DNA from: a virus
Reading direction: 5' to 3' (one strand)
DNA length: 35,184 nt
IMG/VR virus record: IMGVR_UViG_3300019124_000096
Coordinates: 1-35,184 of that record
Positions within the stretch are counted from its first letter, which is position 1. Each line of letters begins with the position of its first letter. This document shows positions 21,998 through 33,087 of this stretch, piece by piece. The notes beneath the pieces were generated by a model, which ran no database searches, was not told the DNA's origin, and was given only the letters and a program-made list of their open reading frames with translations. Both the position numbers and the translations under genes were made by a program.

Positions 21998-22417
21998 ATG
22001 ATGATGGCGCTCGGCACCTTCGTGTTCTCGCTGCCCGAACTCGCCTACCAGCAGCTTCAACGCTCCGTCGCATGGCGCCACGCCAGCACCGAGCGCGTCG
22101 GCGCGCGCGCAGCTCACCAGTTTCTCGGCCCTGGCGAGGAAACCATCGAGCTCTCGGGCCTGGTCGCCCCGGAGCTCACCGGCACGCCGGCGTCCCTGGA
22201 TACCCTGCGTGAGTTGGCGGACGAGGGCCGCCCGCTGGCGCTGGTTGACGGCACCGGACTCGTGCACGGCTCCTTCGTGATCACCGGGCTCAACGAAACC
22301 CGCACGCTGTTCTTTCCCGACGGTGCGGCGCGCCGGATCGAGTTCCAGCTGCGACTGCTTCGTGTAGACGACGAGGCCGCGCAGGGCCGCGATGGCGGCC
22401 CGCGGTCGAACGCATGA
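21998..22417 (+). CDS. U: Tail protein U (P2 gpU)
   Basis: 139 residues (P2 gpU 159). Family features are MALGTFVFSLPELAYQQLQRSVAWRHAS-type opening and the FLGPGEETIELSGLVAPELTG segment. It belongs to the tail-tip assembly set together with D and is coupled to D by a 4-nt ATGA overlap. Three consecutive ATG codons at 21998 leave the exact start open by two residues. Confidence 0.94.
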   Translation: MMMALGTFVFSLPELAYQQLQRSVAWRHASTERVGARAAHQFLGPGEETIELSGLVAPELTGTPASLDTLRELADEGRPLALVDGTGLVHGSFVITGLNETRTLFFPDGAARRIEFQLRLLRVDDEAAQGRDGGPRSNA

Positions 22418-23415
22418 GCGAGCCCTACGCCATTCCAGCGTGGCGGGTAGTACTAGGCGGCCAGGACCTGACCGAGCGGATCCGCCCTCGCCTGATCGAC
22501 CTGACGCTCACCGAGAGCCGCGGCGGCGAGGCGGACCAGCTCGACCTGCGTATCCACGATCACGACGGCCGTATGGGGCTGCCGCGCCGCGGCGTTGAGC
22601 TGACCGTCGCCATCGGCTGGGCGGACGCCGGCATGATCGACAAAGGGCGGTTCCGCGTCGACGAGGTGGAGCACAGCGGCTCGCCCGATGTGATCACCGT
22701 GCGCGCCCGCAGCGCTGACCTTACCCAAGCCATCCGCCGCCGGCGCGAGCGCAGCTGGCACGGCGTGACACTCGGCGCAGTGGTGCGCAACCTTGCAGGC
22801 GAGCACGGCTTGCAGGCGCGCATCGCGCCAGCGCTGGCCGGCGTCTCGATTCAGCACCTCGACCAGGCCGGCGAGAGCGACGCCCACCTGCTCAGCCGAC
22901 TCGCGAAGCGGTACGACGCGGTGGCGACCGTGAAGAACGGCAGCCTGCTGTTCCTCCCTATCGGCGCTGGCCAGACCGCCGCCGGTGACCCTCTTCCGAC
23001 GGTTTCGATCTTCCGCAGGGACGGCGACCAGCACCGCTACCTGCTGGCCGACCGCGAGACCTACAGCGGCGTCCGCGCGTACTGGCACCACAAGGCCGGC
23101 GCGGAGCGCAAGTCGGTGCTGGTCGGCGAAAGCGGGAACGCGAAGCGCCTACGCGACACGTTCAGCAGCGAGGCCGAGGCCCGCGAGCATGCCGAGGCGG
23201 AGTGGAAGCGCATCCAGCGCGGGGCGGCGACGATGTCGTACACCCTCGCCCTTGGCCGCGCGGATCTATATCCGGAGCAGCGCCTGCGCCTGACCGGCTT
23301 CAAGCCTGAGATCGACGCCACCCGATGGCTGATCGCCAAGGCGACCCACAGCATCACCGGCTCGGGTGGCTTCACTACCCAGCTGGAACTCGAGACCGAC
23401 GCCGGTAGACCCTAG
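22414..23415 (+). CDS. D: Tail protein / baseplate hub D (P2 gpD)
   Basis: Late control protein D, a gp27-like baseplate hub that holds the gpV spike; 333 residues (P2 gpD 387). The N-terminal IPAWRVVLGGQDLTERIRPRLIDLTLTESRGGEADQLDLRIHDHDG pattern and the C-terminal LRLTGFKPEIDATRWLIAKATHSI are typical. It is the final gene of the late operon and ends 16 bp before the stop of a converging accessory gene. P2 has ogr at this point; here ogr is elsewhere. Confidence 0.95.
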   Translation: MSEPYAIPAWRVVLGGQDLTERIRPRLIDLTLTESRGGEADQLDLRIHDHDGRMGLPRRGVELTVAIGWADAGMIDKGRFRVDEVEHSGSPDVITVRARSADLTQAIRRRRERSWHGVTLGAVVRNLAGEHGLQARIAPALAGVSIQHLDQAGESDAHLLSRLAKRYDAVATVKNGSLLFLPIGAGQTAAGDPLPTVSIFRRDGDQHRYLLADRETYSGVRAYWHHKAGAERKSVLVGESGNAKRLRDTFSSEAEAREHAEAEWKRIQRGAATMSYTLALGRADLYPEQRLRLTGFKPEIDATRWLIAKATHSITGSGGFTTQLELETDAGRP

Positions 23416-23431
23416 CCCGCAGTGGGCGTGG

Positions 23432-24406
23432 TTACGTGGGCAATTCGCCCTGATGAGCACGCTCCAACACTCGCAGGGCTCGAACGACCATCAAACGTGG
23501 CCGTCCCTCTCGATCGGTTTCATATTCGCCCTCTACCCTCACGAATTCACCGAGCGCATGCTTGGCCTGACGACGGTCAAGTGCTTCGATCACGCAACGA
23601 ATACTTCCGACATTGGCAACGTTCCTCAAATGAAATCGCCTCATGTCGAGATCAATCTCACGTAGCTCGCCACTGAACGCCCCGACCTTCCTCTGGTGGA
23701 GCTGTGGTCGATCCAGGACGTGCTTCAACGTGACTCGCTCTTGAGGCGAAAGCGCGGCGCTTCGCCCACCAGGCGTCGAGATGTCGATCGAATCAATCCC
23801 TCTCCGGCCGGTTGGGGCCAATCGGAACAGCGTGTCGACGGCCGCGTCACGCTTCGCGGGGTCAGGAAGCACGTCTCTAATGGCAGGACTGATCGCGTCG
23901 CCTTCGATCAACCGAGGAATTTCGGGGAGGGAGTGCAACGTATCCTTGACCGTCGCAATCGCGGGCTCGTCATCCTCGTCAAGCAGATCGGATGGTGGCC
24001 TGACGACTGCAAAGCCAGCATACAGACTCCCGGGAGCAAACCCCGTAAGGCGCAGGTCGAGAGCCCTTGAAAAGGCATGCGCGTCTCTCGATGCGAGGTC
24101 AAATAAGGCTCGCGACAAACCTCGAATGGCTCGTTCTGCTGTTCCAGTCAGCCAGTTCACGGCTGAGAGTTTCATCGCCGCTTCTTCTACCGCTGGCCCG
24201 TCGGCGCGAAGAACCAGGTCAGAAGCATCCATGATCCTGGCAAGCGGCATGGCCGTCCTGATCACGTCCAGCAAAAACCCCCTACTGGCGTCAACCACCT
24301 GTCGCGGCGTTAGGTTCATGCCTACGCTCTTCGCTAACAGGCCTTCGGCAACCATGTTCTCCAACACCGCCGTTAGCGTCTGATCTGCATGCTCGGCCCA
24401 GCTCAT
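23432..24406 (-). CDS. Unknown partner protein of the nucleotidyltransferase-like gene
   Basis: I do not recognise this 324-residue protein with confidence. Residues 1-130 are mainly helical (TLTAVLENMVAEGLLAKSVG, then VVDASRGFLLDVIRTAMPL). A middle segment is variable and acidic (DLLDEDDEPA). Residues about 240-318 form a compact beta-rich C-terminal domain (GELREIDLDMRRFHLRNV, then GEFVRVEGEYETDREGRPRL). It overlaps the upstream nucleotidyltransferase-like gene by 4 nt (ATGA), so the two are co-translated and probably act together. G+C is visibly lower than in the phage core, indicating acquisition. There are no membrane or secretion signals. Confidence 0.75.
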   Translation of the reverse strand: MSWAEHADQTLTAVLENMVAEGLLAKSVGMNLTPRQVVDASRGFLLDVIRTAMPLARIMDASDLVLRADGPAVEEAAMKLSAVNWLTGTAERAIRGLSRALFDLASRDAHAFSRALDLRLTGFAPGSLYAGFAVVRPPSDLLDEDDEPAIATVKDTLHSLPEIPRLIEGDAISPAIRDVLPDPAKRDAAVDTLFRLAPTGRRGIDSIDISTPGGRSAALSPQERVTLKHVLDRPQLHQRKVGAFSGELREIDLDMRRFHLRNVANVGSIRCVIEALDRRQAKHALGEFVRVEGEYETDREGRPRLMVVRALRVLERAHQGELPT

Positions 24407-24867
24407 AAGGTGACCCTCAAGATGCCCTTCGGGTGCTTCGGGTTATTGATGCTCAGCTCAGCCGCACACTTCGCGCCAGCGTACTGAAAGTACGCTGCCA
24501 GATCGTTTGGTATGACTGGGTGTCGAGCCCATGCATCAACACGGTAGCTCTTCTTGATTGCCTCATGGGCTATGCGTATCTCAAGCGCTTTTCGTATCGC
24601 AGCGAGATCGTCAACCAACGACGTAAGGTCGATAACAACATCGATGTCGTCAGGGAATTCCTTCCGGCGAACAAAACTCCCATCGATCCACAGCGGCGTG
24701 CCCTTCGGCAGCTGGCCGTTGATCTTCTCGGCAAGGAACCTCTCAAAATTCTTCCACAGGTGCTGGCGATGTTGATTCCAGCAGAGAGCCGAGCCAGCTT
24801 CTTCCAGTTTGCAATCCCACACACCGGCAGGCAAAAGCCCGTGGTCACTGAACGGTGGTATCGCCAT
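24403..24867 (-). CDS. Nucleotidyltransferase-fold protein (DUF6932-like)
   Basis: 154 residues. The opening IPPFSDHGLLPAGVWDCKLEE resembles the DUF6932 group as I remember it. The catalytic-type motif is IDGSFVRRKEFPDDIDVVIDL: GS at residues 63-64 and DxD at 74-76, which is the minimal nucleotidyltransferase GS-Xn-DxD signature. A later third acidic residue is not clear. GGAGG lies 5-9 nt before the ATG. The gene begins 30 nt after a strong terminator on the same strand, so it needs its own promoter or read-through. Related fold members act as toxins, antitoxins or RNA-modifying enzymes; substrate unknown. Confidence 0.75.
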   Translation of the reverse strand: MAIPPFSDHGLLPAGVWDCKLEEAGSALCWNQHRQHLWKNFERFLAEKINGQLPKGTPLWIDGSFVRRKEFPDDIDVVIDLTSLVDDLAAIRKALEIRIAHEAIKKSYRVDAWARHPVIPNDLAAYFQYAGAKCAAELSINNPKHPKGILRVTL

Positions 24868-24897
24868 CCGTGCCTCCGCTAGCAGTAGCGGTCGTCC

Positions 24898-24932
24898 AAA
24901 AAATGGCAGCGGCGAAGTACTGCCGCTGCCAT
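24898..24932 (-). terminator. Strong intrinsic terminator after the OB-fold gene
   Basis: A perfect 11-bp stem ATGGCAGCGGC/GCCGCTGCCAT (24903-24913 and 24922-24932) with an 8-nt loop, followed on the minus strand by TTTTTT and GG. It lies 18 nt past the stop of the OB-fold membrane gene and 30 nt before the start of the nucleotidyltransferase-like gene. Confidence 0.88.
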
Positions 24933-24949
24933 GCGGTCAGCGCCTTGCG

Positions 24950-25618
24950 TTAGCGCACTCGGCAGTCGTCGAGCATTGGCGAGCCAATCACCTCGCCCGC
25001 GCCTTCACACACCAGGGTGATCTTGCTGCCCTTGGCCAGCGATGCGGCGACATCCTTGCTCAGACCACGCGCCTGCACATGCTGGAACATGTTCGAGCTC
25101 TCGAGCTGCACGACCGGCTCATCGCCCATTCCCGAGTCGATGCCAGCCACTTTGCCGGTGATCTCCAGCGTCTTCCCCTTGTACTGCGAGTCGGCCGCCA
25201 CTTCGTTCGCCTCGTATGAGGCGAAGAGCTCCGCCGCGGTCACCTTGATCGCATCGGCCGGTGCGGCCTGTTCGACGGCCGCGGCGGAGTTGTCCCGGGC
25301 TTCCGCGCGCGCCTTGTAGTCCTGGTACGCATCACCGCTGAGTGCGGCCGCGCCGAGGATGCCCCAGCCGATGAAGTACACGATCGGCGACACGACCAGC
25401 GACGCAATGAGCGGGATCAGCCCCTTGCGGGTGAAGCCGCGCGCCATGACGACGATCGCCAGAATGAAGGCGACCAGGTTGAGCGGCCATCCGACGAAGA
25501 CGCCCGCGCCGGGCAACGGGATCAGGAACAGTACCCACGCGAGGATGAGACACACCCATGTGGCTTTTACGGGTGCGCTGCGCGGTGTGGTCGTGACGGT
25601 TTCGGTTGCTGCGTTCAT
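24950..25618 (-). CDS. Membrane protein with tRNA_anti-like OB-fold domain
   Basis: 222 residues with hydrophobic segments near 20-40, 44-60 and 69-92. A linker rich in Ala/Glu (residues 97-120) leads to a C-terminal OB-fold of the tRNA_anti-like group (AAELFASYEANEVAADSQYKGKTLEITGKV, then GSKITLVCEGAG, then CRV ending). The OB domain would sit on one face of the inner membrane. GGGGAG before the ATG is a strong ribosome site. It lies downstream of the repressor on the same strand and is closed by a strong terminator, so expression in the lysogen is plausible. Superinfection exclusion or envelope modification are guesses. Confidence 0.75.
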   Translation of the reverse strand: MNAATETVTTTPRSAPVKATWVCLILAWVLFLIPLPGAGVFVGWPLNLVAFILAIVVMARGFTRKGLIPLIASLVVSPIVYFIGWGILGAAALSGDAYQDYKARAEARDNSAAAVEQAAPADAIKVTAAELFASYEANEVAADSQYKGKTLEITGKVAGIDSGMGDEPVVQLESSNMFQHVQARGLSKDVAASLAKGSKITLVCEGAGEVIGSPMLDDCRVR

Positions 25619-25641
25619 GGAGACTCCCCTGTCGTGACGAA

Positions 25642-25658
25642 GCGTGGCGTAGCCACGC
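25642..25658. repeat. Palindrome between repressor and OB-fold gene
   Basis: GCGTGGC/GCCACGC with a GTA loop, in the 153-bp gap between the repressor stop and the OB-fold gene start. There is no T-run, so it may be an operator or weak terminator. I see no gene in this gap and no clear promoter. Confidence 0.35.
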
Positions 25659-25771
25659 GGTTGACGCTTCCTGCGCGGCGGAACTGCAGTGCGCGGGACA
25701 GCGAATGCTGATGTTCACCCTGCGCGCCGATATGCCCCCGGCAACGTATTGGCCGACGTTGACCGTGTGCC

Positions 25772-26206
25772 CTAACTGCGCTTCCCCTTTTTTCGGCCGC
25801 CCACGGTGAAGGACTGCTCCCCCACCGTCAGCGGACCCGAGACCACCTGCCCCGCGCCCCCGTTCACCGTGACGCCGCCGGTCGGCTGCGTAGCCGCGGT
25901 CGCCGTACCGAGCACAGCCAGCGCCGCCGCGCGGATCTCCGGCGACGCGCCGCGATACCGTCTGAGCAGTTCAGATTCTTCGGAGGACACCGTTGCTGCG
26001 GGTCGCCCAGTGAGGATGTAGACGACGTCGGCGCCGTGGGCCGCGATCGCTGAGAGATAGGCCACGTCAGGCGCCGTTGATGCCGCCTCGTATGCAGCCT
26101 GCGTGCGGCGGCTTACTCCCCCGAGCGCGGCAAAGTCGGCCTGGTTGAGGCCGATCCGATCGCGCTCCTCCCTGAGGCGCAAGGCCAATCCCTGTGCATC
26201 GTGCAT
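25772..26206 (-). CDS. XRE-family phage repressor (CI/C-like)
   Basis: 144 residues. The N-terminal HTH_XRE domain is clear: LALRLREERDRIGLNQADFAALGGVSRRTQAAYE, then APDVAYLSAIAAHGADVVYILTG. The C-terminal half has a short helix (SPEIRAAALAVLG) and a beta-rich tail (GGVTVNGGAGQVVSGPLTVGEQSFTVGG) instead of a LexA-type peptidase, so SOS self-cleavage is not expected. I chose ATG 26206 for homology; the frame is open to 26281 across the operator. It is divergent from the Cox-like gene over an operator palindrome and is the lysogeny regulator by position. Confidence 0.85.
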   Translation of the reverse strand: MHDAQGLALRLREERDRIGLNQADFAALGGVSRRTQAAYEAASTAPDVAYLSAIAAHGADVVYILTGRPAATVSSEESELLRRYRGASPEIRAAALAVLGTATAATQPTGGVTVNGGAGQVVSGPLTVGEQSFTVGGRKKGKRS

Positions 26207-26226
26207 TTCGTCGCACCCCAACCTAT

Positions 26227-26255
26227 TGACATGAGCAGTTTTCTGCTCAATGATG
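26227..26255 (+). promoter_or_regulatory. Early promoter (PE-like) overlapping the operator
   Basis: TTGACA at 26227-26232, a 17-bp spacer and AATGAT at 26250-26255 form a good sigma-70 promoter reading towards the Cox-like gene. The spacer is the operator palindrome, so bound repressor would block it. On the minus strand TTGAGC, 17 bp and AATAGG give a weaker candidate for the repressor itself. Confidence 0.7.
26233..26250. promoter_or_regulatory. Repressor operator palindrome
   Basis: TGAGCAG-TTTT-CTGCTCA, a perfect 7-bp inverted repeat lying between the -35 and -10 of the rightward early promoter and overlapping the candidate leftward promoter. A degenerate second copy sharing CAGTTTT lies at about 26268-26283. 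It is the likely binding site for the XRE repressor and possibly the Cox-like protein. Confidence 0.7.
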
Positions 26256-26286
26256 GTTTCCAGTTCTGCACAGTTTTGCACGACCT

Positions 26287-26520
26287 ATGGGCACGAAGCA
26301 CCCCAAGTCCGTCCGTACCCCTGAGCAGGTCCGTGCTGAATTCGATCGTCTGGGGATGACGGTTGCGGACTTCGCCCGGAAACACGGCTTCAAGCAGCCG
26401 GGGATCGTCTACCAGGTGCTTAGCGGCCAGAAGAAGGGCCGCAGGGGAGAAGCACATCGCGCCGCGGTGTTGCTCGGTCTCAAGCAGGGCATCGTCCGCG
26501 GAGCGCAGCGCCATGAGTAA
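26287..26520 (+). CDS. Cro/Cox-like early DNA-binding protein
   Basis: 77-residue basic protein with a helix-turn-helix-like region (LGMTVADFARKHGFKQPGIVYQVLSGQKKGRRGEAHRAAVLL). It belongs to a small DNA-binding family common at the start of early operons in P2-like phages of beta- and gammaproteobacteria. It is the first gene of the rightward transcript, divergent from the repressor, so the role is expected to be Cro/Cox-like: repressing the repressor promoter and possibly directing excision. Excision directionality with a serine integrase would work differently from P2 Cox. Confidence 0.75.
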   Translation: MGTKHPKSVRTPEQVRAEFDRLGMTVADFARKHGFKQPGIVYQVLSGQKKGRRGEAHRAAVLLGLKQGIVRGAQRHE

Positions 26521-26794
26521 AGCGCCAGGGATGCACTGCCCGCACTGCAAGCACCCCGCTCGAGCCCGGACCAGTACGGCGATGTCGCCGCTCTACCGAG
26601 AAGTCACCTACACGTGCCTCAACGTCCACTGCGGGCACGTCTTCGTATGCGGCCTCGAGGCCATCCGCACGCTGTCGCCGTCGGCGATACCGGACCCCGA
26701 AATCAATCTCCCCCTTTCCCGTCACGTGCGGCAGCGCCTGCTGCTGCAGCAGCTTCGCCTCGACTTGGAGGAAGAGACCAATGAACCGGCATGA
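26513..26794 (+). CDS. ogr: Ogr/Delta-like zinc-finger late transcription activator
   Basis: 93 residues (P2 Ogr 72). The zinc ligands are C9, C12, C35 and C40, embedded in the conserved CPHCKHPARARTST and CLNVHCGHVF patterns that match P2 Ogr (CPLCQHAAHARTS, CQNVNC). It activates phage late promoters through RNA polymerase alpha. It sits second in the early operon, overlapping the Cox-like gene by 8 nt and the next gene by 14 nt, whereas P2 ogr follows D. This placement would make late activation directly dependent on early derepression. Confidence 0.9.
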   Translation: MSKAPGMHCPHCKHPARARTSTAMSPLYREVTYTCLNVHCGHVFVCGLEAIRTLSPSAIPDPEINLPLSRHVRQRLLLQQLRLDLEEETNEPA

Positions 26795-27128
26795 CGAACA
26801 GGTCCTGGTGGCTGCCCAGCGCTTCTACGCGCGCCACGAGGCCGAGCACCTGGATCACGACAGCGACCGCCTGATCGATCGCTGCTCCGCCTACCTCGTG
26901 GAGACCTTCGGCATGCCGGAGCGCGCCGCACGCCTTGCCGCGATGGAAGTGCGCGCCGAACAACAGACGCGCGGCGTTGCCGCGATCGTGGACGTCGACC
27001 GCAGCAATGCGCGCATGGTCATCGTCCGCGACCTCGACACGGATGCCGTCGCGATGGTCACGGTGAGCGAGCTGCTGCAGCTGGTGCGCTTGCGCAGCCG
27101 CCCGCCGACGCCTGTACCCGCCGGCTAA
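26781..27128 (+). CDS. Early-operon hypothetical protein
   Basis: 115 residues of unknown function. The N-terminal half is helical (EQVLVAAQRFYARHEAEHLDHDSDRLIDRCSAYL in outline) and the C-terminal half contains a beta-strand pair (GVAAIVDVDRSNARMVIV) ending in a helix with TVSELLQLVRLRS. There are no membrane or metal motifs. It overlaps ogr by 14 nt and precedes the replication gene, so it is part of the early transcript. Confidence 0.65.
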   Translation: MNRHDEQVLVAAQRFYARHEAEHLDHDSDRLIDRCSAYLVETFGMPERAARLAAMEVRAEQQTRGVAAIVDVDRSNARMVIVRDLDTDAVAMVTVSELLQLVRLRSRPPTPVPAG

Positions 27129-27213
27129 CCGCCTCTCCGCCCCTGCCTACCGACCTCCCGCCCGGCCGCGTTGACCGGGCACAGGTTCGCTTTTGCCCGA
27201 GTTCCGCCCACCC

Positions 27214-31382: not shown

Positions 31383-33087
31383 GCCGCAGATGCAGTTCGC
31401 CTTCGGCCCCGAGCTGATCGTCGACCTGTTCGCCGGCGGCGGCGGCGCGTCGCTCGGCATCGAGCAGGCGTTCGGCCGCCCCGTCGACATCGCCGTCAAC
31501 CACGATGCGGACGCGATCGCGATGCACGCGGCGAACCACCCCCACACGGAGCACATGCGCTGCGACGTGTTCGAGGTGAACCCGCTGCAGGCCACGCGCG
31601 GCCGCCAGGTCGGCCTGCTGTGGGCGTCGCCGGACTGCAAGCACTTCTCCAAGGCCAAGGGCGGCAAGCCGCGGTCGAAGAAGATCCGCTCGCTGGCGTG
31701 GGTGGTGGTGAAGTGGGCGATGCTGGTGCGCCCGCGCGTCATCATGCTGGAGAACGTCGAGGAGTTCGTGACGTGGGGGCCGCTCGGCCCGGACGGCATG
31801 CCATGCCCGCGGCGGAAGGGTCGGACGTTCAACCGCTGGGTCCGTGAGCTCCGGCGCCTCGGCTACAAGGTAGAGTGGCGCGAGCTGCGCGCGTGCGACT
31901 ACGGCGCGCCGACCATTCGCAAACGGTTCTTCCTGATCGCCCGCTGCGACGACCTGCCGATTCGCTGGCCGAAGCCGACTCACGGCAAGCCGGACAGCGC
32001 CGAGGTGCGCAGCGGCAAGCTGCTGCCGTGGCGCAGCGCCGCGGAGTGCATCGACTTCTCGCTGCCGTGCCCGTCGATCTTCCTGCCGAAGGAGGAGGCG
32101 CGCGCACTCGGCGTGAAGCGGCCGCTGGCCGAGGCCACGCTGCGCCGCATCGCGAAGGGCGTGGACCGCTTCGTGCTCAACAACCCGCGGCCGTTCATCG
32201 TGCGGAACATCCACGGCAACACGCCGGCGGACGTTGCGGCACCGATGCCGACGCTCCTGACCGGCAACCACACCTACCTGGCCGCGCCCACGCTGGTCGA
32301 CGTCGCGCACGCCGAGGTGGGGCAGAACGGGAGCCGGCGCTGGTCCGACGGCGCGCACTCGGTCGAGCAGCCGGCGAAGACGGTGACCGCCACCGGCAAT
32401 CAGGCCGTCGTGTCCACGTTCCTCACGAAGTACCGGGCCGACAACGCCGGCAGCGCCGCCGATGCGCCGTTCCCCACGGTGACCGCCAACGGCGAGAGCG
32501 AGCGCCCCGGTGGCAACCCGCCGCTGGCGGTGGTGGCCGTCCACATGGAGCAGGCAAACGCCGGCAACTACGAGGGCGGCGGCCGCGCGGTGGACGCGCC
32601 GCTGTCCACGATCACCGCGAAGGGCTGCCAGCAGCAGCTCGTGGCGACGTCGCTGGTGAAGCTGCGTGGCGACAACATCGGCAGCCAGGCGGAAGCCCCG
32701 CTGCACACCGTCAGCGCGCAGGGCTTGCACCACGCCGAGGTGCGCGCCTTCCTCGTGAAGTTCTACAGCGCGGGCGGCCAGCACGCCGGCTGCGACGAGC
32801 CGATGCACACAGTGCCGACGCGCGATCGCATGGGGCTGGTCACGGTCGAAGGCACCGACTACGCGATCGCCGACATCGGCCTGCGGATGCTGACCCCGCG
32901 CGAGCTGTTCCGCGCGCAGGGTTTCCCCGAGAACTACGTCATCGACCGCGGCGTCGACGGCCGCAGGCTGCCCAAGGACGCCCAGGTGCGGATGTGCGGC
33001 AACAGCGTGTGTCCGCCGATGGCGCGCGCGCTGGTCGAGGCCAACGTCGGCGAGCTGCGTCGCGTCGAGGCCGCCGTCTATGCGTGA
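31375..33087 (+). CDS. DNA cytosine-5 methyltransferase with repeat-containing insert
   Basis: 570 residues. SAM motif I (IVDLFAGGGGASLGIE) is near residue 15, catalytic motif IV reads ASPDCKHFSKAKG near residue 83 (PDC in place of PCQ), and motif VI is LENVEEF near residue 126. Motifs IX-X lie at the C-terminus (RMLTPRELFRAQGFP, then GNSVCPPMARAL). Between about residues 275 and 485 are at least six repeats with core P-x-x-T-[VIL], where a target-recognition domain is expected. No restriction enzyme is adjacent, so protection of phage DNA is the likely role. Confidence 0.9.
   Translation: MREPQMQFAFGPELIVDLFAGGGGASLGIEQAFGRPVDIAVNHDADAIAMHAANHPHTEHMRCDVFEVNPLQATRGRQVGLLWASPDCKHFSKAKGGKPRSKKIRSLAWVVVKWAMLVRPRVIMLENVEEFVTWGPLGPDGMPCPRRKGRTFNRWVRELRRLGYKVEWRELRACDYGAPTIRKRFFLIARCDDLPIRWPKPTHGKPDSAEVRSGKLLPWRSAAECIDFSLPCPSIFLPKEEARALGVKRPLAEATLRRIAKGVDRFVLNNPRPFIVRNIHGNTPADVAAPMPTLLTGNHTYLAAPTLVDVAHAEVGQNGSRRWSDGAHSVEQPAKTVTATGNQAVVSTFLTKYRADNAGSAADAPFPTVTANGESERPGGNPPLAVVAVHMEQANAGNYEGGGRAVDAPLSTITAKGCQQQLVATSLVKLRGDNIGSQAEAPLHTVSAQGLHHAEVRAFLVKFYSAGGQHAGCDEPMHTVPTRDRMGLVTVEGTDYAIADIGLRMLTPRELFRAQGFPENYVIDRGVDGRRLPKDAQVRMCGNSVCPPMARALVEANVGELRRVEAAVYA

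Follow-up and report, generated by a model that had tools for sequence, protein, structure and literature searches.

PDC-M63AB is listed in PADLOC as a candidate phage defence system, and its role in defence is unproven. In the Escherichia coli NILS69 study, deletion of PDC-M63AB revealed no detectable defence against 10 phages, and PDC-M63AB gave no protection, as the text implies, when individual NILS69 systems were cloned into K-12 and challenged with 15 phages; the limited phage set is acknowledged by the authors (PMC12409345). This is the sole published test of a PDC-M63AB found in the body of papers searched. In HEPN-MNT (MntA–HepT) pairs of solved structure, MNT is the antitoxin according to the structure titles. 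In PD-lambda-2, toxicity comes from the second gene, which encodes the XRE-peptidase component, and is rescued by the first, PD-lambda-2A, which is described as HigB-like. MenAT and AbiE each combine a nucleotidyltransferase with a partner gene and are linked, in published abstracts, to growth arrest or phage defence.

The window analysed here is an entire virus record (35,184 bases) that may be a fragment, and its tail region is P2-like. For positions 22000–27200, Stenotrophomonas phage Smp131 is the best phage record, with 66.9% identity across 23% of the query. The features of the region are the following.

22414-23415, plus strand: late tail gene D, which bounds the cargo slot on its left (tail protein by phrog_52, E 1.9e-145)
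24406-23432, minus strand: gene B, the partner of A, 324 aa (ATG start; no family match)
24403..24406, minus strand: stop/start overlap of A and B, ATGA, 4 nt (read from the sequence; the same overlap occurs in many relatives)
24867-24403, minus strand: gene A, predicted nucleotidyltransferase of DUF6932 (MNT-like), 154 aa (ATG start; PF22014 and PDC-M63A matches)
24903..24932, minus strand: terminator-like hairpin of 11 pairs followed by a T run, 35 nt 5′ of gene A (RNA fold z -2.37)
25618-24950, minus strand: tRNA_anti-like gene, outside the pair (PF12869, E 8e-19; PHROG 8545 'superinfection exclusion Sie-like', E 1.1e-28)
26281-25772, minus strand: HTH repressor-like gene, head of the minus-strand group (HTH_3, E 1.8e-6; PHROG transcriptional regulators)

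Genes A and B form a diverged version of DUF6932/PDC-M63, a candidate defence family that is already known but unproven, because PADLOC lists their relatives as PDC-M63AB and its models detect only A here. A preliminary description of this DNA had proposed an undescribed defence or toxin–antitoxin system; 'undescribed' finds no support, as relatives are already the PADLOC candidate PDC-M63A/B and one PDC-M63AB has been published as tested, and what stands is a gene resembling nucleotidyltransferases that is inherited together with its partner, in a variable slot whose cargo in relatives matches known defence systems. The pair resembles PDC-M63AB in gene order, in the match of A to PDC-M63A and in the colinearity of B with one M63B-type group, but B matches no PADLOC PDC-M63B model. 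Gene A is similar to the MNT of HEPN-MNT in its motif and its leading structural matches, whereas B gave no HEPN family match and the model of its C-terminus is an OB fold. PD-lambda-2 and RosmerTA resemble some other DUF6932 loci, which have an XRE-ImmA/IrrE partner; in contrast, neither XRE nor peptidase was matched by B, and DUF6932 A differs from the HigB-like PD-lambda-2A. The pair is like MenAT and AbiE in its two-gene composition, but the matches of A in Pfam, PADLOC and NCBIfam include neither a MenT nor an AbiEii model, to the extent that those libraries contain one.

The D–repressor gap contains three minus-strand genes (the tRNA_anti-like gene, A and B), and the pair fills most of it; the 3′ end of D (23415) lies just short of the stop of B. 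The preliminary description, which had placed two overlapping minus-strand genes of lower G+C than the phage core between D and the repressor, is borne out in each of these respects, with one addition: the tRNA_anti-like gene intervenes on the repressor side, so the pair is not immediately 3′ of the repressor. The G+C content of the pair is 0.574, as against 0.680 for the whole window, and none of 676 sliding 1400-nt windows is lower; third-position GC is 0.63 in A, 0.62 in B and 0.87 in D. The terminator-like sites of the region number three, versus 2.4 expected from shuffles, so their count is not above chance, and no sigma-70-like promoter was found on the minus strand between 23300 and 26900. 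The tRNA_anti-like gene has a strong relative beyond the repressor in locus L085 (E 1.7e-76). This 'Sie-like' gene may be a second exclusion gene of the same slot.

The slot varies among related phages. The survey comprised 70 viral loci retrieved by D, 39 of which have both D and a repressor like that of the window (P0004-like); across these 39 the gap measures 77–5116 nt. Of 85 cargo ORFs, 47 were scanned against PADLOC, with 71 models matched at E ≤ 1e-5, and 10 were rescanned, five of them matching at E ≤ 1e-15. The matches include a CBASS cyclase with a 4TM effector (L112), AriAB (L107), DzbA (L140) and NsnA/PD-T4-2_A (L106). The D–repressor slot is thus a variable cargo site with matches to known defence systems in relatives. 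No relative of A or B was seen in the downstream DNA of the slot loci examined. A defence hotspot of E. coli P2-like phages is placed next to cos between gpA and gpQ (PMC9122126), which is a different place from the D–repressor slot.

Gene A belongs to DUF6932 by direct computation: it passes the Pfam cut-off for PF22014 (90.7 bits versus 27; E 1.5e-25), its residues 4–152 align to profile positions 1–141 of 142, and PADLOC PDC-M63A matches it at E 9.5e-13. The GS-Xn-DxD motif first noticed at residues 63–76 is present as G63 S64 … D74 I75 D76, and is joined by D111. GS, DxD and a third carboxylate, all present in A, make up what we take to be the motif of polymerase-beta-type nucleotidyltransferases. 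G63, D74 and D76 are conserved in 85/85 distinct sequences of DUF6932 (66 paired with an M63B-type partner and 19 others; L005, L054, L055, L062, L069 and L170 excluded) and S64 in 84/85; the position of D111 holds D in 75/85 and otherwise H or E. In the sister of gene A at locus L068, GG stands where A has GS.

The AlphaFold2 model of A (pLDDT 69.9, pTM 0.67) has block means of 78–95 over residues 31–120. Foldseek gave nucleotidyltransferases in 8 of the top 10 rows, most of the 50 rows listed being other proteins, and the leading rows are the MNT antitoxins 7bxo (E 0.04) and 7ae2, in an E range of 0.04–0.07. With VIA-align, the first 23 of 50 rows are what we take to be nucleotidyltransferase-fold proteins, followed by unrelated ones; they include 2rff (Z 5.3), AadA (5.2) and HEPN-MNT 8xeh (5.0), and also Cid1 and CdnE. 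No PDB match at E ≤ 0.001 was obtained by Foldseek for the models of A or B, and the best VIA-align Z values (5.3 for A, 8.6 for B) are near or below the level that the tool terms common. These weak structural matches suggest a nucleotidyltransferase fold for A, as had been expected: the core is predicted, and the leading rows are nucleotidyltransferases, at scores that are low (E 0.04, Z 5.3). From the motif together with these rows, gene A is likely a catalytic nucleotidyltransferase, fold scores alone being no proof. Searched as a single sequence, A matched three phage records but no viral contig or plasmid; with an alignment headed by A, 28 viral loci were subsequently retrieved.

Gene B has no match in Pfam, NCBIfam or PADLOC (the last scanned to E 1 and again at 0.1), and a single insignificant row in PHROG (E 0.52). 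It was thus rightly called unrecognised, and no family of structural or metabolic phage proteins was matched. No close relative of B was found in viral contigs, plasmid or phage records; across 398 sampled genomes of one phylum it gave one short match (68 residues, E 5.1e-4), and a profile of B with the partner in L068 matched, among 247 genomes, only the genome of L068 itself. That partner is the only close relative found for B (30% identity, E 5e-34, residues 53–312). It is the gene 3′ of a DUF6932 gene, itself a relative of A at E 8e-12, in a genome from the phylum of a Saprospiraceae MAG. By hhalign, B with the L068 partner aligns to the enterobacterial-type M63B partners with Prob 85 (E 5.8e-6, columns 46–305) and to the second M63B-type group with Prob 10 over 66 C-terminal columns; the two groups align to each other with Prob 99.2. 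A profile of 21 partners made without the window gives B 16.2 bits. Judged by these sequence comparisons, gene B is a distant relative of M63B. Across 36 partners, G126 and S127 of B are the only invariant residues, and no tyrosine is invariant. Models of PDC-M32A also match up to 15 of the 36 M63B-type partners weakly.

The helical N-terminus and beta-rich C-terminus first ascribed to B are drawn by AlphaFold2 as well, at modest confidence (pLDDT 63.2, pTM 0.47). The model has a two-helix hairpin (residues 3–55), a poorly modelled middle that includes G126 and S127, and an OB-fold-like C-terminal barrel (about 236–320), with five strands at 239–308 and a helix at 278–283; block means are 75–87 at 241–300 and 60 at 301–310. 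The top 50 PDB rows for B are presumably all OB or OB-like barrels. Foldseek rows include RPA 8aas (E 5e-3, prob 1.00), ExoVII, CspA, SSB and LysRS, and VIA-align rows include SSB 4dam (Z 8.6), PriB (8.5) and Stn1–Ten1 (8.3). An OB fold is therefore predicted for the C-terminus of B from the five-stranded barrel and its leading matches, and moderate models support both this fold and the nucleotidyltransferase core of A. In BFVD, B is matched best by a protein of DUF6575 (E 1e-5, TM 0.30, rmsd 13.5), and DUF6575 occurs as a domain in a validated E. coli defence system (PMC9519451). The connection between B and DUF6575, resting on this one BFVD match, is a lead.

As the preliminary description had anticipated for a true pair, this type of pair occurs elsewhere. 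In Erwinia phage vB_EhrS_59 and Escherichia phage PhiR30_1, a DUF6932 gene and a gene for a 310-aa partner overlap by 4 nt directly after the repressor gene, and the partners match PDC-M63B at E 1.6e-43 and 4e-42, respectively. The PhiR30_1 pair or a relative is present in 97 of 5426 E. coli genomes, at 99 places, all 99 chromosomal. Computed directly, both genes are adjacent with A first in 6/6 viral loci retrieved with P0006, 26/26 with the M63B-type profile and 28/28 with DUF6932; these sets share 5 contigs, leaving 55 distinct contigs, and in L170 gene B is split by a stop. Given the DUF6932 match of A and this pairing in every viral locus fetched, the module first noticed goes beyond chance. 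The distance matrices of A and B across 64 paired loci have a correlation of 0.945, whereas 2000 permutations reached at most 0.13; the value is uncorrected for shared ancestry. The gene upstream of A, taken as the nearest ORF on either strand within 1.5 kb in 48 distinct viral loci plus P0004, L002 and L004, carries HTH_3 in 32/51, Peptidase_S24 in 26/51 and Phage_CI_repr in 12/51; in the window, the gene nearest upstream of A is tRNA_anti-like rather than the repressor.

The partners of DUF6932 genes are diverse. The tally comprises 56 loci, including the window, found by DUF6932 alone except L004 (whole-pair search); 14 loci duplicating a record or a stretch of sequence were removed beforehand, and L031 and L070–L072, whose PF22014 matches lie below the in-house profile limit, fall outside it. 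An M63B-type partner occurs in 34/56, 33 assigned by profile (two of them short OB-like) and L068 by likeness to B. Eight have an XRE-type partner: L035 and L040 were assigned by Pfam, with an ImmA/IrrE peptidase, and the others, assigned by eye, are presumed to belong here. The L040 partner matches PD-Lambda-2_B at E 1e-75. In 11 loci there is only a helical ORF of 68–103 aa (among them L005, whose A gene is broken, and L045, possibly a cut M63B). One locus, L011, has an HsdR-like helicase, residues 1–60 of which match the N-terminus of PDC-M63B in PADLOC (E 1.1e-6), and L055 has no gene in reach. The remaining partner, in L069, we take to be HEPN from an RxxxxHxY stretch; the DUF6932 match of this locus is weak (28.8 bits versus the cut-off of 27), and L069 is a possible bridge between DUF6932 and MNT. 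An N-terminal hairpin common to all partner classes is not claimed for the window pair (Prob <1 for window B by hhalign); its presence is supported in the helicase type by the PDC-M63B match of L011 and suggested in the short OB type (Prob 52), but weak in the XRE type (Prob at most 13), and the tiny partners reach at most 4.

What is new here is this pairing of DUF6932 enzymes with M63B/OB, short OB, XRE with or without ImmA/IrrE, helicase and tiny helical proteins. At the hubs of toxin–antitoxin networks, one component is described as constant while its partners change (PMC10440598). It is conceivable, if doubtful, that DUF6932 forms the unchanging core of a defence network, undescribed so far, in which partners are exchanged: one MNT-like effector would be joined to interchangeable sensors (an M63B core with OB, a short OB, an XRE-ImmA/IrrE protease related to PD-lambda-2B, an HsdR-like helicase or a bare helical antitoxin) and this prophage would carry a previously unmodelled OB-fold sensor subfamily. 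If the pair acts against other phages, the variety of partners would also hint at how a single effector is coupled to diverse infection signals.

The enzyme family is widespread across the sampled genomes, each sample including a centre genome picked for having DUF6932: 17/398 genomes of one phylum, 5/369 of a class within that phylum, and 18/247 of another phylum (15 over the cut-off). None was found in 14 control genomes. DUF6932 is named in none of the body of papers searched.

The reading that we favour, tentatively and with slightly less than even confidence, is an abortive-infection or toxin–antitoxin-like module in which a nucleotidyltransferase effector is controlled by an OB-fold partner. 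The pair is probably expressed in the lysogen. A probably transfers a nucleotide to RNA, tRNA being the favoured guess, or to protein, and B probably binds A, holding it inactive or directing it. The OB fold of B would contact ssDNA or RNA arising during infection by another phage; the A–B complex would thereby be disturbed and A would arrest growth, so that few progeny would leave the infected cell and the population of lysogens would survive. Complex formation, the identity of the toxic partner, the trigger, the substrate and the defence itself are the elements that we infer. A is favoured as the effector because the partners of 68–103 aa in other DUF6932 loci leave little space for a second enzyme. 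If the pair excludes phages, having an OB-fold partner points to a nucleotidyltransferase that is gated by a sensor of nucleic acids.

The roles could also be reversed, with A an antitoxin-type AMPylase like the MNT of HEPN-MNT and B a toxin that A modifies or neutralises. Known systems leave room for this, as MNT is the antitoxin in HEPN-MNT and the XRE-peptidase, rescued by the first gene, is the toxic member of PD-lambda-2; MNT antitoxins head the Foldseek rows for A, and the L069 partner is read as HEPN. However, B has no enzyme family match, and the 36 partners share no invariant tyrosine, only G126 and S127; moreover, partners of 68–103 aa are unlikely to be enzymes. No HEPN match for B was found in Pfam, searches that divergent HEPN domains can escape. 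On balance, we regard the reversal as rather unlikely, and a nucleotidyltransferase effector held by an OB-fold partner remains preferred.

Another explanation dispenses with defence and is, in our estimate, unlikely: the pair would serve lysogeny or prophage maintenance, by addiction or by tuning the repressor circuit, and would be kept by the repressor since it helps the prophage to stay. Two small overlapping genes fit addiction modules, an HTH or S24 repressor-like gene often lies upstream, and the NILS69 test of PDC-M63AB was negative (PMC12409345). Against this, the slot is variable and has known-defence matches in relatives, and the repressors that such pairs follow differ between lambdoid and Rac-like elements and this P2-like one. 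Very improbably, A and B are cargo in decay, or passengers, that presently have no role in this phage. Their G+C, the lowest of the window, would suit such cargo, as would the terminator-like hairpin 35 nt 5′ of A, the lack of a promoter-like site on the minus strand and the absence of any near relative of B from the viral contigs and the phage and plasmid records searched; yet neither frame is interrupted, the motif residues are retained, and the sister pair in L068/L205 is likewise open.

In L205 (6918-9767 and 11923-14301), an integrase-like gene immediately precedes the sister pair, and the gene for a large SIR2-like protein follows further downstream. These neighbours, read by eye from their motifs, are presumably a tyrosine recombinase and a SIR2-like protein, and with them the sister pair would have a second mobile, defence-like setting. 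Elsewhere in the window, positions 31400–32950 or thereabouts resemble phage C-5 cytosine methyltransferase genes; 680 bases are 76.6% identical to DNA of Burkholderia phage BgManors32.
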